From: a virus
Virus record (IMG/VR): IMGVR_UViG_3300037847_002379
Location: 1-21,697 of that record
Length of the DNA: 21,697 nucleotides
Direction: 5' to 3' (one strand)
Under the pieces are notes generated by a model. It saw nothing but the letters and a program-made list of their open reading frames with translations. It had not been told where the DNA came from and did no database searches. Made by a program: the position numbers and the translations under genes. Numbering within the stretch: the stretch's first letter is position 1; every line of letters begins with the position of its first letter. This document shows, piece after piece, positions 1,630-19,713 of the stretch.

Positions 1630-1645
1630 GTTATTTCCTTTTGAA

Positions 1646-1674
1646 GGGGCAGAATACCTCTGCCCCTATATATA
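1646..1674 (-). promoter_or_regulatory. Stem-loop plus late-promoter-like TATATATA ahead of lysozyme
   Basis: Between hsp20 and lysozyme the minus strand has TATATATA (1674-1667), then GGGGCAGA (1666-1659), loop GGTAT, then TCTGCCCC (1653-1646): a perfect 8-bp GC-rich stem. No T-run follows, so it is not an intrinsic terminator. TATATATA is one base off the T4 late -10 box TATAAATA; transcription from it would start inside the 5' arm and destroy the hairpin. In T4, early transcripts of gene e fold into a hairpin that blocks translation while late transcripts start within it. Here the Shine-Dalgarno lies just after the stem rather than within it. Confidence 0.5.
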
Positions 1675-1676
1675 AG

Positions 1677-6334: not shown

Positions 6335-7009
6335 TTAAGAGAATTGACTATTAGACTCAACAGCAATCCAGTATGTTATCTTTGGTCCTTGCTCATTGCA
6401 AGAAGTAAACTGAGATATACCTTTAGAGGTAATCTTACACAGATAATCAAATGCCATCAGCTTCATATTCTCTGCTTTGAATATAAAACTGAAAGTATGA
6501 TCTGTATCATTACTTCCAAGTGTTTGTGTATACCTATCAGATGTTGGATCATTACTATTGATAGCTTCAAGAGTTATATTGTCTCTACCACTAATAGCAA
6601 TCTCTGGTAGCTGCATTATGTTAGCTGCTCTCTGAACTGCATTCATCTGATCCCATTTGATTTGTATATCCAAGTCAGGATCAGGTATCTCAATAGATTC
6701 CTTCGTTGGAGTAACAATCATAGATGGATCTGCAAACGTGTATGAAACACTCTTTCCAGCATCAGAGATTTCCAAGACATCTTCTTTAAAGTTATATGTG
6801 GGAGTTTCAAAAAGGGAAACTACACCCAAAAATCTTGAGAGGTCATAGATAGCTCCATCAGACGGAAACGTATCATCCAATGTAGCTCTAGCCATGATGC
6901 TCTTCTGAGGAGACATCGTTGCTAATGCATTACCTTTCTTAAAAGCAATTGAAGGATTAATCATAGAAAAATTCTTCAGTATATTCACAGTATCATTACT
7001 AAATTTCAT
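6335..7009 (-). CDS. 45: Sliding clamp gp45
   Basis: gp45 is the trimeric DNA sliding clamp that gives processivity to gp43 and, in T4, activates late transcription through gp55 and gp33. This 224-aa protein matches the family length (T4 228 aa) and opens with MKFSNDTVNILKNFSMINPSI, typical of phage clamps. Other family-like parts include the FADPSMIVTPTKESIEIPDPD region and a C-terminal KITYWIAVESNSQFS. It sits two bases after an SGNH-like gene, with GAGG near the end of that gene serving as its ribosome site, and precedes gp44. Confidence 0.95.
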   Translation of the reverse strand: MKFSNDTVNILKNFSMINPSIAFKKGNALATMSPQKSIMARATLDDTFPSDGAIYDLSRFLGVVSLFETPTYNFKEDVLEISDAGKSVSYTFADPSMIVTPTKESIEIPDPDLDIQIKWDQMNAVQRAANIMQLPEIAISGRDNITLEAINSNDPTSDRYTQTLGSNDTDHTFSFIFKAENMKLMAFDYLCKITSKGISQFTSCNEQGPKITYWIAVESNSQFS

Positions 7010-11873: not shown

Positions 11874-12584
11874 TTAGTTAAGTATAGACAGTCCTCTCGC
11901 AATGTTAAGAAACTCACGACGGACCTCAGAATTAGTTTCTTCAAAGGCACCGTTGACAGCTAAGGTACAAGTACTAGATCCAGTATCTTGAATACCTCTA
12001 CTCTTTACACAGTAATGAACTGCTTCAAGATATACAGCAACATCTGGTGTACCAGTTACAAAAGATATAGTAGCTGCAATCTGTTCAGTCAATCGTTCTT
12101 GTACTTGAGGCCTCTTAGAGAAGAACTCTACAATACGATTTAGTTTAGATAATCCAAGAACCTTATCTCTTGGAATATATGCAACACAAGCCTTACCATC
12201 TATCACAACTAAGTGATGCTCACAGTTAGACTGTACGTTTACATTTCGTTCTACTACAAAAGAATTAGGAGAGTTTCTTTTACTCTTTGCCATCTTATTC
12301 TCAATTGTAGTACATTTAGGAAACTGGTCATAATCCAATCCCCAGAATATTTCTTTGACCCACATCTTAGCTACACGGTTAGGTGTGTCCATCAGTGAGT
12401 CATCAGTAAGATCCAAGCCAAGTGTTGCTAATGCACCAGCTATGAATGTTCTTATAGATTCAATCTTATCTTTTTCGTCTACACCTACTAGATCAGTCAT
12501 AGGTGTTTCGAGACCAATCTGTCGAAGATGCTCTCGTACTTTCTGACCCAACACAGGGTCAGACTTATAGTCAGGATGACTCAT
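11874..12584 (-). CDS. folE: GTP cyclohydrolase I
   Basis: FolE converts GTP to 7,8-dihydroneopterin triphosphate, the first step to folate and to 7-deazaguanines. With ATG 12584 (MSHPDYK, preceded by GGGAGA) it is 236 aa. Zinc ligands are clear: Cys121 and His124 in SNCEHH and Cys192 in HYCVKSRG. MDTPNRVAKMWVKEIFWGL and LGLSKLNRIVEFFSKRPQVQERLTEQIA are family hallmarks. A longer ORF to 12620 reads into the PRTase gene and lacks a better ribosome site. A candidate promoter lies just upstream at 12619-12647. In company with QueD and QueE its likely purpose is deazaguanine synthesis. Confidence 0.96.
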   Translation of the reverse strand: MSHPDYKSDPVLGQKVREHLRQIGLETPMTDLVGVDEKDKIESIRTFIAGALATLGLDLTDDSLMDTPNRVAKMWVKEIFWGLDYDQFPKCTTIENKMAKSKRNSPNSFVVERNVNVQSNCEHHLVVIDGKACVAYIPRDKVLGLSKLNRIVEFFSKRPQVQERLTEQIAATISFVTGTPDVAVYLEAVHYCVKSRGIQDTGSSTCTLAVNGAFEETNSEVRREFLNIARGLSILN

Positions 12585-13056
12585 TACTTTTCTCCCACGG
12601 GAATACAATCCATTCATCATTATCTACTTTTCGAGGACTAAAGTCAACATTGAAGGTTGAGTTATATCTACTCCACATTGAAACAGTTTTTACATTTACT
12701 TTCATACTTTCATAACTTTGAGTCCAATGTCTTCTAATCCACTTGTGAATCTGGTTAAATGTTTTACCAGAGTCATTGATATCATCTACAATAAGTATTT
12801 GATGGCCTTTTTCAAGAACTCTTTCTGGCAATGGATCTTTTTGAGCACCATCTCTGTTTTGCCATCTTATAGGAATGTTTTCAATTCCTAATGCATGAGA
12901 AAGATACACTCCTGGAACCAAGCCACCTCTAGCTATTGAGATTACAGTATTAGGAGTCCATTTAACTCCTGGTGATGTAGCCTCAGATCGAGCTTGGACC
13001 CACTCAACAACTTGGCTTATGTCCTTCTCGAAGTCTCTGTGCTTGTAGTATATCAT
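12571..13056 (-). CDS. Phosphoribosyltransferase (type I PRTase)
   Basis: This 161-aa enzyme has the type I PRTase PRPP loop ILIVDDINDSGKTF (residues 87-100) and a PPi loop in SIARGGLVPGVYLSHAL (40-55), resembling hypoxanthine/xanthine/guanine PRTases and similar phage proteins. It would join a base to PRPP, or the reverse. The base specificity cannot be read; guanine salvage is the simple guess, a deazaguanine base an attractive but unsupported one given the neighbours. It is coupled by ATGA to the 71-aa protein and overlaps folE by 14 nt. Confidence 0.85.
   Translation of the reverse strand: MIYYKHRDFEKDISQVVEWVQARSEATSPGVKWTPNTVISIARGGLVPGVYLSHALGIENIPIRWQNRDGAQKDPLPERVLEKGHQILIVDDINDSGKTFNQIHKWIRRHWTQSYESMKVNVKTVSMWSRYNSTFNVDFSPRKVDNDEWIVFPWEKSNESS
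12619..12647 (-). promoter_or_regulatory. Sigma70-type promoter upstream of folE (TTGACT-N17-GATAAT)
   Basis: Inside the 3' end of the PRTase gene TTGACT (12647-12642) is followed by 17 nt and GATAAT (12624-12619), the same hexamers as at gp43. The expected start near 12612 leaves a leader of about 28 nt before the folE ATG at 12584. The -35 is again within GTTGACTTT, encoding Val-Asp-Phe. Confidence 0.65.
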
Positions 13057-13268
13057 TGTAAATAATTGTCAAGTGCCTCTAGTTTATCAAGAGCTTCAGC
13101 AAGTTTAGCTAACTGCTCATCGACTGCTGCAACTATATCAGAATGTTCTCCTATACCAGCAGGATTTTCCATATAGATATCAATATTAGTTCTAGCTTCT
13201 GCTGCTTGTGCCTCATACTTGAGTTTCAAAGCATGAGATATACTTTCATCTAGTGATGCCTTAATCAT
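13053..13268 (-). CDS. 71-aa helical hypothetical protein
   Basis: I chose ATG 13268 (MIKASLDESISHALKLK), preceded by GGAGA and overlapping the QueD stop; a GTG at 13298 in frame would add ten residues from within QueD. The sequence is rich in Ala, Glu, Leu and Lys with a heptad-like C-terminal half (VDEQLAKLAEALDKLEALDNYL), so one or two alpha helices, perhaps a coiled coil, are expected. There are no catalytic motifs. It is coupled by ATGA to the PRTase gene. A small adaptor or oligomerising protein would be a guess. Confidence 0.7.
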   Translation of the reverse strand: MIKASLDESISHALKLKYEAQAAEARTNIDIYMENPAGIGEHSDIVAAVDEQLAKLAEALDKLEALDNYLQ

Positions 13269-13734
13269 CGAACTCTCCGTCTTCTCTGTGACCAACACGC
13301 ATAGCCATGTTACTTACTGTTTCACGGACTTCTACCTTACAGCACCATACTCTTGTACCTGGTTCCCAGTTAGGTAGGAATATTGTATTTATATATTCAT
13401 ACAAGAAGTCTGCAATACCTTCACAACCAGTTTTTTCAACTTCTGTAATCTTTGCAAGACCAAGCTCTCCAAGTTTAAGTAAATGTTCTCTGTCAGGATC
13501 ATCTTGTGCAACAAGTAGTGTATGGTCAAACCAATCTTCAAGATTACCTTTTAGAGGTTTTAGTCCACCAAAGTCCACAACCCAGTTACGAGCATCAAGG
13601 TCATTAGTCTCAAACTCAAAGTGAAACGATAAAGCATATCCATGTATCAGATTACAATGAGAGTCAGCTCTCCATTGTCTATATGCCACAGGACCTAGAT
13701 GTGTGTATGTTTTAGTACTAATATATTTTGCCAT
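13261..13734 (-). CDS. queD: 6-carboxytetrahydropterin synthase (QueD)
   Basis: QueD converts dihydroneopterin triphosphate to 6-carboxytetrahydropterin, step two to 7-deazaguanine. This 157-aa protein shows SHCNLIHGYALSFHFEFE with Cys27 four residues before His31, VVDFGGLK, WFDHTLL (Asp70-His71), GCEGIADFLYEYI and VEVRETVSNMAMR with the terminal Glu. Compared by eye with E. coli QueD, two zinc-binding His positions (His16 and His33) appear to be Tyr (AYR and HGY). As I recall, cyanophage QueD proteins share this pattern. The ribosome site AGGAGA is clear. The next gene encodes a small helical protein. Confidence 0.9.
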   Translation of the reverse strand: MAKYISTKTYTHLGPVAYRQWRADSHCNLIHGYALSFHFEFETNDLDARNWVVDFGGLKPLKGNLEDWFDHTLLVAQDDPDREHLLKLGELGLAKITEVEKTGCEGIADFLYEYINTIFLPNWEPGTRVWCCKVEVRETVSNMAMRVGHREDGEFDD

Positions 13735-13742
13735 GTTATCTC

Positions 13743-14333
13743 CTACCTATAAAAGTCATGAATGCCAGAAGTTCTGTCACGCCAAACTTTCTGGTAGTCT
13801 TCATCTTGGATCTTACAATTACCACTTATTGAAATACGAACATCTGCAGACGTGTTTGGTGTCGTATAATGGTTAAGCCAAGATGGAAAGATAACCAATC
13901 GACCAACTCTTGGAGTGATCTCATGGTTGTTCATCTGCATATGACTTACCATTTGGAATCTTAGTCTACCTCCATACTTCTCATCAGGTAGTAAAGGATA
14001 GTATACCCAAGATAAAAATAAGTTCTTGTGATCTCTTTCATTACGATGACTGTGTATCATTGTAGATTGATTCTCTACAAGAATGTGTGCCCAGATCTCA
14101 GATAGATAGTATCTATCATCAATATTAGAATGCACAACAGTCATCACCTTATCTGTTAGTTTTGTTATTTCAGGATCATCAGGAATCCTTGAGTCCTCAT
14201 ACCCAGTTGCATTTGGACTCTCATCAATCTTTCTGTGCGCCCATGACATGCATAGCTCACTAATCTTTCTGTTGTCAAGATCCTTACCAATCTCTGTATG
14301 TAAAACTTTAGTACATGATACTGTCTCAAACAC
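13743..14333 (-). CDS. 2OG-Fe(II) oxygenase
   Basis: This 196-aa protein matches a phage-rich group of 2-oxoglutarate/Fe(II) oxygenases (resembling TIGR02466 as I recall it): MIHSHRNERDH, LSWVYYPLLPDEKYGGRLRF, VGRLVIFPSWLNHYTTPNTS with the distal His, and DVRISISGN with the 2OG-binding Arg. The metal motif near the first His reads HSH rather than HxD, so the third ligand is unclear. The start is GTG at 14333, with GGGGG about 10 nt upstream, overlapping the QueE stop. Its place between queE and queD suggests it could tailor a base, but protein hydroxylation is equally possible. Confidence 0.8.
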   Translation of the reverse strand: MFETVSCTKVLHTEIGKDLDNRKISELCMSWAHRKIDESPNATGYEDSRIPDDPEITKLTDKVMTVVHSNIDDRYYLSEIWAHILVENQSTMIHSHRNERDHKNLFLSWVYYPLLPDEKYGGRLRFQMVSHMQMNNHEITPRVGRLVIFPSWLNHYTTPNTSADVRISISGNCKIQDEDYQKVWRDRTSGIHDFYR

Positions 14334-15237
14334 CTATTAAGTTCCCCCACAAATAACAGTGCACTCTTGCACTTACGTTGTATCCTCTTTTGAATGCTTT
14401 TTCCGCAATTTCTCCAGCGCCAGCCTCTTGTTGCTCAGCCAGAGCCCCCACTGGCATAATCCAGACAGGATAATCAATACCATTGCGCCGAAAATCAGAT
14501 AGAACATCTTCCATCTCCTCCCATTGTCGTTCATTAGGACCGAGGACAAACTTTAGTTGTCCATGCTTAGATAACATTCTATAGGATTTCAACACATCAG
14601 GCTTTATAGCCTTGTCTGGTTTCTCTCCAGACACAGTCTCTAGTTTAGGACTGATAGAGAAGAACAACTCTTCATCATACAATCCTTTGTTCTGAAAGAA
14701 TTCAATAAATGCTGATGTTAGTGGTTGTGTCCCATTAGTTTCAAATGTTACACTAGCAGGCATGTTGTAGTTTCTTGCCTTGAATTCTCTCAGTATTTCT
14801 GGTACAGCTTTCTGCGCATGCTTCATAAGAGGCTCACCTCCAGTGAAACACATATGCTGCCATACACCATTAGGATGTTTAAACAATCCTTCTGGATTGC
14901 TTTCATTCTTCATCATATCTATGATACGATCAACAATCTCTTCTGGTGTACCTTTTCGTTGTAGATGTTTATACTTCTTACTCCAAGAGTATGAACTATC
15001 ACATCCTTTATGGAACACTGGAAGATCTTCTAGTGACTCAAAGTTATTAGGATCAATGTCTTTGTATGGTAACTCATATGTAGATGGATCAGTTGGATCC
15101 TTCTGCATAAAGCCATCACACTGCAAGTTACATAGAAAGAACCTAAACCATGCTGTCGGTACTCCAGTATACTTTCCTTCACCTTGTATAGAATGAAAGA
15201 TCTCACTGTAGTGGTAGACTGAGCTTCGTTCTGCCAT
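14326..15237 (-). CDS. queE: 7-carboxy-7-deazaguanine synthase QueE (radical SAM)
   Basis: QueE converts 6-carboxytetrahydropterin to 7-carboxy-7-deazaguanine with S-adenosylmethionine and a [4Fe-4S] cluster. This 303-aa protein has the QueE start YSEIFHSIQGEGKYTG, cluster cysteines Cys36 and Cys40 (CNLQC) and probably Cys79 (GCDSSYSW), the radical-SAM FTGGEP at 131-136, TFETNGT and FFSISPKLE. The gap between the second and third cysteines is 38 residues (through DPTDPSTYELPYKD), much longer than in bacterial QueE. It needs a reductant; a ferredoxin is encoded 11 kb downstream. It starts 35 nt inside the peptide deformylase gene. Confidence 0.92.
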   Translation of the reverse strand: MAERSSVYHYSEIFHSIQGEGKYTGVPTAWFRFFLCNLQCDGFMQKDPTDPSTYELPYKDIDPNNFESLEDLPVFHKGCDSSYSWSKKYKHLQRKGTPEEIVDRIIDMMKNESNPEGLFKHPNGVWQHMCFTGGEPLMKHAQKAVPEILREFKARNYNMPASVTFETNGTQPLTSAFIEFFQNKGLYDEELFFSISPKLETVSGEKPDKAIKPDVLKSYRMLSKHGQLKFVLGPNERQWEEMEDVLSDFRRNGIDYPVWIMPVGALAEQQEAGAGEIAEKAFKRGYNVSARVHCYLWGNLIGV

Positions 15238-19176: not shown

Positions 19177-19713
19177 TTAGAAATACTTTTCGACGCCTTT
19201 TGCTTGCTTACGTTTTTCTTTTGTCTTCACTTCTTTAGCTTCAAAGTTCTTGACAAAGTCATTCATATAGTCACTACCAATCTCAACATTGTTACCAATG
19301 CCCTTGTCATCTCCTTCAACCAATGAGTTAAACAACACTGATTGTTCTAGTGACTTGTGTTTTATATACAATTGTTTCTTTTCTTTTTGTATCCTTCTCA
19401 GAAAAGCATAGTAGATAATCTGAGTGAAGTATGCAAATGGGTTGTTAGACTTCTCTGGATCAAAGTTATGTATATAACTAACACAGTTCTCAATACCATC
19501 ACTAATCATATCATCCTTGAATGTATAATTAGCAAAGTTTGGTTTAGTTGCTAACCTATTAGCGATCTGAAGTAAGCAACGTCCAACGTAGTTTGGTACT
19601 TGTGGTTTAATATCTCCTGTTTGTTCTGCTTCGTCAACAGCTTTTTTATACTCGACCATAACAGCGTACAATTGCTTGTTATCGACATAGTGTGCTTTCT
19701 TTGCCTTAGCCAT
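19177..19713 (-). CDS. 55: Late sigma factor gp55
   Basis: gp55 is the small sigma-family protein that directs host RNA polymerase to phage late promoters (TATAAATA in T4), activated by the gp45 clamp. This 178-aa protein matches T4 gp55 in length (185 aa). The sigma region 2-like segment includes FKDDMISDGIENCVSYIHNFDPEKSNNPFAYFTQIIYYAFLRRIQKEKKQ, the typical signature of this family and of sigma region 2.2-2.4. The tail is basic and glutamate rich. It is coupled to the upstream 126-aa gene as TAATG. Confidence 0.95.
   Translation of the reverse strand: MAKAKKAHYVDNKQLYAVMVEYKKAVDEAEQTGDIKPQVPNYVGRCLLQIANRLATKPNFANYTFKDDMISDGIENCVSYIHNFDPEKSNNPFAYFTQIIYYAFLRRIQKEKKQLYIKHKSLEQSVLFNSLVEGDDKGIGNNVEIGSDYMNDFVKNFEAKEVKTKEKRKQAKGVEKYF

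Follow-up and report, generated by a model that had tools for sequence, protein, structure and literature searches.

Ahead of the lysozyme gene of a distant, marine T4-like phage, a late-promoter-like octamer overlaps the 5′ arm of a GC-rich hairpin. On balance, we favour reading this site as an insulated late promoter for lysozyme, in which the hairpin would silence read-through RNA and would be absent from late RNA. Read-through RNA from the replication genes and hsp20 would contain the intact hairpin, downstream of the hsp20 stop codon and ahead of the lysozyme ribosome site, and would thereby be kept from yielding lysozyme. A late RNA polymerase of the gp55/gp45 type would initiate at about A1661, inside the 5′ arm; late messages, because they start there, would be unable to form the hairpin and would be translated. 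Octamer use, the existence of read-through RNA and silencing by the hairpin are all three steps that we infer from the sequence. The anatomy of the site, its rarity elsewhere in kin contigs, its conservation and the computed loss of folding on truncation are what the analysis shows.

The stretch analysed here (the window) is a virus record of 21.7 kb whose recognised genes lie on the minus strand. Around the site they run in the order gp62 (3076–2618), regA (2637–2236), hsp20 (2156–1677; PF00011, E = 7.3e-19; phrog_432), the site itself, lysozyme (1629–1183) and a 91-aa ORF (1190–915) that overlaps the lysozyme end and has no Pfam or PHROG match, with the replication genes upstream of the site co-directional with lysozyme. 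The lysozyme, of 148 aa, stands alone and is of the phage lysozyme (T4) type (Pfam PF00959, E = 3.1e-06) and shares 27% identity with T4 e over 139 aligned columns; its E15, D24 and T30, which we take to be the catalytic positions, are invariant in 10 of 10 aligned sequences. Since the window also encodes a gp55-type late sigma factor (19177–19713, minus strand; phrog_234, E = 1.4e-64) and a gp45-type sliding clamp, the late-transcription activator of T4 (6335–7009, minus strand; phrog_223, E = 7.9e-67), late transcription of the T4 type is to be expected. A megablast search with the window, whose scope may have excluded records very near to it, returned no near phage records. Rfam at gathering thresholds gave no match in the window or in 20 kin loci, and with lax limits over 1600–2320 the best match had an E of 0.55, far under its gathering score. 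Elsewhere in the window, an ORF run on the minus strand (11874–15237) resembles by eye a queuosine-type set (FolE-like, QueD-like and QueE-like).

The site occupies the gap between hsp20 and lysozyme. As an earlier note on this DNA had read it, a perfect 8-bp GC-rich hairpin precedes the lysozyme ribosome site: on the minus strand, the 5′ arm AGGGGCAG (1667–1660; A1667, GGGGCA, G1660) pairs with the 3′ arm CTGCCCCT (1652–1645; C1652, TGCCCC, T1645) in eight perfect pairs, six of them G–C, and a ninth pair, A1659–T1653, leaves a loop of five bases. The hairpin begins nine bases after the hsp20 stop codon (1679–1677). RNA from 1676 to 1620 folds at −16.8 kcal/mol (z −2.59), and one of 200 shuffles was equally good. 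Stems of this quality (at least 8 bp, at least six G/C, loop 3–9) arise 0.02 times per dinucleotide-shuffled window and were present in two of 100 shuffles, none of them adjoining TAWATA. The late-promoter-like octamer TATATATA (1674–1667, minus strand), expected to span −13 to −6, has seven of eight letters in common with the T4 late octamer TATAAATA and, together with the gp55/gp45 system, makes the site by sequence a candidate T4-type late promoter. The octamer had been placed just before the 5′ arm, which is right as to adjacency and off by one base as to order, since its last A (1667) is the first base of the arm. The Shine-Dalgarno sequence AAGGA (1640–1636, minus strand) lies outside the stem, a few bases past it, as previously noted; it begins five bases beyond the stem, with four bases between, and the lysozyme ATG follows at 1629. 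Downstream of the last G–C pair reads UUCAAAAGG, so that the site has the GC-rich stem-loop of an intrinsic terminator and lacks its U-rich tract.

The T4 late octamer spans −13 to −6, according to the excerpted text of PMC1524935. Counting six nucleotides past the octamer by this register puts the predicted late +1 at A1661 (minus strand), the penultimate base of the 5′ arm in the 8-bp stem. The expectation that a late transcript would start within the arm and lose the hairpin is upheld by prediction: the late leader from A1661 would be 32 nt long and folds at −3.8 kcal/mol vs −16.8 kcal/mol for the long form. The register is also consistent with the cultured pelagiphage HTVC008M, in which TAAATA-N5-ATG occurs 12 times; no other spacing between 0 and 15 exceeds three, and the reversed sequence has a single occurrence. 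This peak at spacing 5 fits a start six nucleotides past the octamer. The other loci pooled gave no spacing-5 peak (14 occurrences at spacing 5, up to 18 elsewhere). Of 19 late genes of HTVC008M, 13 have TAWATA in the 80 nt ahead of them, vs five of 17 others, both sets being hand-chosen. In T4 late promoters, the segment that follows the octamer is AT-rich, as the excerpted text of PMC2988020 has it; in the window, the corresponding segment from −5 to −1 is GGGGC. As an aside, TAAATA precedes the ATG by exactly 5 nt in twelve ORFs across HTVC008M and L177/L481/L482. A late mRNA from such a promoter would begin at the A of the start codon, and leaderless late messages are thus possible in HTVC008M.

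Conservation was assessed among 337 lysozyme-bearing sequences (window included), which gave 237 distinct upstream regions (60 nt or longer, the match having a start codon close by). Of these loci, 73 have T4 context, i.e. regA, gp62 or hsp20 upstream, and 164 lack it. We distinguished class A, an NNTAWATA octamer abutting a strong hairpin (arm at most 3 nt from the octamer), class B, a hairpin followed by an octamer, and class H, a hairpin without an octamer. The hairpin is indeed retained in relatives, a check that the earlier note had suggested: the T4-context loci comprise 23 of class A, 19 of class B, five of class H, eight with an octamer and no strong hairpin and 18 with neither next to lysozyme, vs 0, 4, 8, 11 (octamer alone) and 141, respectively, among the 164 others. 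The octamer in the 23 class A rows is TATATATA (eight rows), TATAAATA (six), AATAAATA (six), ACTAAATA (two) or AATATATA (one); a sister clade (L020/L099-L107), with lysozymes 70–74% identical, carries exact TATAAATA at the corresponding place. Across the same 23 leaders, folding energies of −16.8 to −23.3 kcal/mol drop to −2.0 to −8.9 on the predicted truncation. All 23 rows have a purine at the predicted +1, although they are not independent and their register is partly fixed by the selection rule for the arm.

The stem itself also points to conservation of pairing. In 19 hsp20-adjacent leaders (16 of class A, three of class H), the outer five pairs, AGGGG/CCCCT, are invariant and the inner three vary, pair 6 taking the forms C–G, G–C, A–T, T–A and G–T. 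All 56 of 56 cells pair across the seven distinct arm pairs, which none of 2000 shuffles reached; since the best-pairing 3′ arm was selected and relatedness is disregarded in the shuffles, the compensating pairs count as support, not proof. Arm pairs were counted by script, the MAFFT alignment of the lysozyme leaders misaligning the 3′ arms. In a lysozyme tree, class A occurs on either side of a long branch supported at 99 (quick method, SH-aLRT only), a branch at which, by the program's own warning, long branches meet. The 73 rows named for the tree are the T4-context set minus L042, L044, L045 and L074 plus four context-free class B rows; 71 rows entered it, since one row each of classes A and H was too short, and the 11 rows of its group Aup were assigned by hand.

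By its sequence, the arrangement is kept in relatives and is not universal. The class H loci with T4 context include L119, L120 and L122, those whose octamer has no strong hairpin beside it include L116 and L121, and in L023 and L124 the leader is a different one. The T4-like Phage C48C1, whose lysozyme is 49% identical, has no octamer-hairpin unit in the 120-odd bases preceding lysozyme, and the annotation of HTVC008M, which has hsp20, regA and clamp-loader genes, shows no adjoining lysozyme.

Within the kin contigs, the combination of octamer and hairpin is concentrated at lysozyme. We searched 269 kb, consisting of the window and 20 kin-contig stretches, among which are near copies, so that counts there are not independent. 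This set holds 21 perfect hairpins (at least 8 bp, at least six G/C, loop 3–9), 17 of which are the pre-lysozyme hairpin; three of the other four precede a T-run on one strand. Among its 464 TAWATA motifs, a directly adjoining hairpin at least as strong as −15 kcal/mol occurs in 22 rows, namely 20 (16 places) before lysozyme and two (one place, L195) before hsp20. A wider set of 3957 distinct motif contexts yielded 85 rows with a hairpin at −12 kcal/mol or better, and the layout is not exclusive to lysozyme, since it also occurs there before hsp20, a clpS-like ORF, small Cys-rich ORFs and other ORFs (labels of small ORFs by eye, except the matched hsp20 of L122). In five contigs (L038:4458, L046:4458, L064:4436, L067:4463 and L070:4463), AGTAAATA and a hairpin stand before a 102-aa ORF, ClpS-like by eye, soon after hsp20, and in six others (L261, L319, L321, L323, L382 and L388) the octamer overlaps a T-run hairpin before an ORF of 45–51 aa, Cys-rich by eye, upstream of lysozyme.

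The strongest competitor, which we nevertheless consider rather unlikely, is that the promoter sits inside a terminator: the hairpin would end upstream transcription, and the late polymerase, starting in the arm, would escape its own terminator. Class B loci speak for this, their T-run hairpin followed by an octamer at the lysozyme locus; L360, L362, L374, L381 and L391, for instance, have a terminator-like hairpin, TTTTTT and directly thereafter the octamer. On a terminator score of the d'Aubenton Carafa type, class B has a median of 50.1, and all 19 of the 19 rows scored out of 23 are above zero (17 of 19 rows with T4 context were scored and two of four without; for class H with context, five of five). 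Furthermore, 11 of the 18 T4-context loci with neither element next to lysozyme carry an octamer overlapping a T-run hairpin 166–455 nt upstream of it, and all 16 rows of such upstream hairpins, which come from 14 loci, score above zero; L110/L112/L113/L115 likewise score 30 to 49. Against it stand the window hairpin itself, with a borderline 3.4 vs 63.9 for the window terminator at 592–575, L201 of the sister clade (−5.5), L281–L288 (−22 to −35) and a class A median of 0.8, with 11 of 21 scored rows above zero out of 23 (L098 and L104 left out). Moreover, a terminator scan of the window did not have the pre-lysozyme hairpin among the hairpins it reported. The hairpin at 575–592 looks like a terminator on either strand; it has a UUCG loop, and its T run lies on the minus strand.

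It is improbable that the hairpin merely stabilises or processes the 3′ end of the hsp20 mRNA and is unrelated to lysozyme timing. Its closeness to the hsp20 stop codon and its retention in the three relatives without the octamer agree with such a role, yet in L281–L284 the end of the hsp20 match is 276–306 nt from the lysozyme start and a lysozyme-proximal hairpin still abuts the octamer.

Still less likely for the window is the T4 gene e mechanism proper, in which the hairpin would hide the Shine-Dalgarno sequence and AUG in read-through RNA. Gene type, an octamer in the 5′ arm and conservation of the hairpin are all as this would have them. The computed cost of opening the ribosome site was compared between long and late RNA (L115 late values were left out of this set, and for the late form of T4 e, taken from the downstream octamer, there is no Shine-Dalgarno value). 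The T4 e control behaves as published, opening of −13 to +4 costing 15.2 kcal/mol in the long RNA vs 1.1 in the late RNA. In the window, whose Shine-Dalgarno sequence lies outside the stem, opening the core costs 3.1 kcal/mol with the hairpin vs 4.9 without, so that the ribosome site is not buried, and direct burial as in T4 e was rejected here. The sister clade (L201, L202, L099, L102 and L107) behaves alike, its core being costlier to open in the late form (4.7 vs 7.0 for L201), which by this measure argues against a translation switch. In L281–L284, the stem does reach the Shine-Dalgarno sequence, and core opening costs 5.0–8.9 kcal/mol early vs 0.4–2.4 late in four of four folded (L288 was left out), an intermediate case in the opposite direction. 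The earlier note had proposed that blocking in the window would have to be steric. Wider opening costs make this possible (10.8 long vs 5.9 late for −18 to +15; 19.4 vs 9.2 for −30 to +15), and a block of this kind may operate; hairpins in sister lineages, meanwhile, look like terminators, and hairpin-to-ATG distances of 9 to 34 nt across the 23 class A rows mean that no fixed steric distance is kept.

A chance hairpin beside an AT-rich stretch can practically be dismissed, for although TATAWATA by itself is at chance frequency within the window (four seen vs 4.28 expected, two of the four being both strands of the site's own palindrome), such stems are rare in shuffled windows and the hairpin is conserved with changed sequence in relatives.

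The insulated late promoter therefore remains our preferred reading. In its favour are the 23 of 73 vs 0 of 164 class A loci, the purine at +1, the gp55 and gp45 genes and the hairpin-octamer order of class B in 19 of 73; against it count the 5 of 73 class H loci, the 8 of 73 with an octamer lacking a strong hairpin and the 18 of 73 with neither, the GGGGC after the octamer and a core site that is open in both RNA forms. For the form seen in the window, a block at the RNA level (of ribosome access or of re-initiation after hsp20) is somewhat likelier than termination because the U-tract is poor. Termination would coincide with the promoter-in-terminator explanation, so our confidences in the two overlap. 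Neither pure form fits, and the common factor is a barrier on incoming RNA that late RNA should lack. More generally, marine T4-like phages may carry an insulated late promoter in which the 5′ arm of a hairpin bears the octamer. Such a unit would serve lysozyme, hsp20 and a clpS-like gene, and its layout would slide among a terminator (U-tract forms), a ribosome-site block (L281–L284) and intermediates (the window); this we put forward tentatively, as somewhat short of probable.

The hsp20 leader has a structure of its own. A hairpin with a bulged G (YGCC-loop-GG) is conserved there in the window (2206–2156, minus strand), L117:1175-1247, L201:2404-2476 and others; downstream of it, before AGGAG, comes YUYGCU, a motif like the anti-Shine-Dalgarno sequence of ROSE RNA thermometers. 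The hairpin was found in 73 of 100 distinct hsp20 leaders, 66 of these also having the YUYGCU motif, vs 0 of 100 shuffled. Rfam at gathering thresholds had no match in the 20 kin loci already mentioned, and RNAalifold found no pair in a MAFFT alignment of 30 leaders in which the arms look misaligned, the hairpins having been counted by script; three leaders folded singly gave z of −0.8 to −1.3, little better than shuffles. The literature match on RNA thermometer, phage and hsp20 concerns a Sphingomonas protein.

Premature lysozyme would end an infection early. Syn9, S-PM2, P-SSM2 and P-SSM4 are listed among phages without an apparent gene e in the excerpted text of PMC3014915, and a pelagimyophage survey was, as its excerpt states, unsuccessful in predicting late promoters in the genomes surveyed (PMC7029224). 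A conserved octamer-hairpin unit would give both an anchor for late promoters and, for ocean phages, a lysis-timing device open to test; a single problem is met by several arrangements at this locus. Outside T4 and its close relatives, we found no description of such a unit in the excerpted open-licence literature (PMC3014915, PMC2988020, PMC7029224, PMC3037559, PMC1524935, PMC2984593, PMC9004378).

Compared with known systems, the site has in common with an intrinsic terminator followed by a promoter the GC-rich stem between genes, an order that the class B sister lineages show at this locus, but its U-tract is poor and its octamer, which overlaps the 5′ arm, does not come after the hairpin. 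With T4 I-TevI it would share a late promoter that adjoins the 5′ part of an inhibitory structure, as described in the excerpt of PMC3014915; in the structure-blocked starts of T4 soc, 49 and I-TevI covered by the same excerpt, however, the ribosome site itself is sequestered. The closest likeness is to T4 gene e (PMC3014915), with its T4-type lysozyme, its late octamer on the 5′ arm of a leader hairpin and its long RNA with the hairpin and late RNA without, the latter predicted here from an octamer placed such that late RNA would lack the 5′ strand. The two differ in that the T4 helix contains the Shine-Dalgarno sequence and AUG, whereas the window helix stops 4 nt short of the Shine-Dalgarno sequence and leaves both unsequestered, and in that the window stem is GC-rich and belongs to a distant marine T4-like phage. 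The parallel drawn in the earlier note thus holds for the layout (lysozyme type, octamer on the 5′ arm, co-directional replication genes) and in relatives, and fails for burial of the ribosome site; we regard the site as a variant of the T4 lysozyme timing arrangement.
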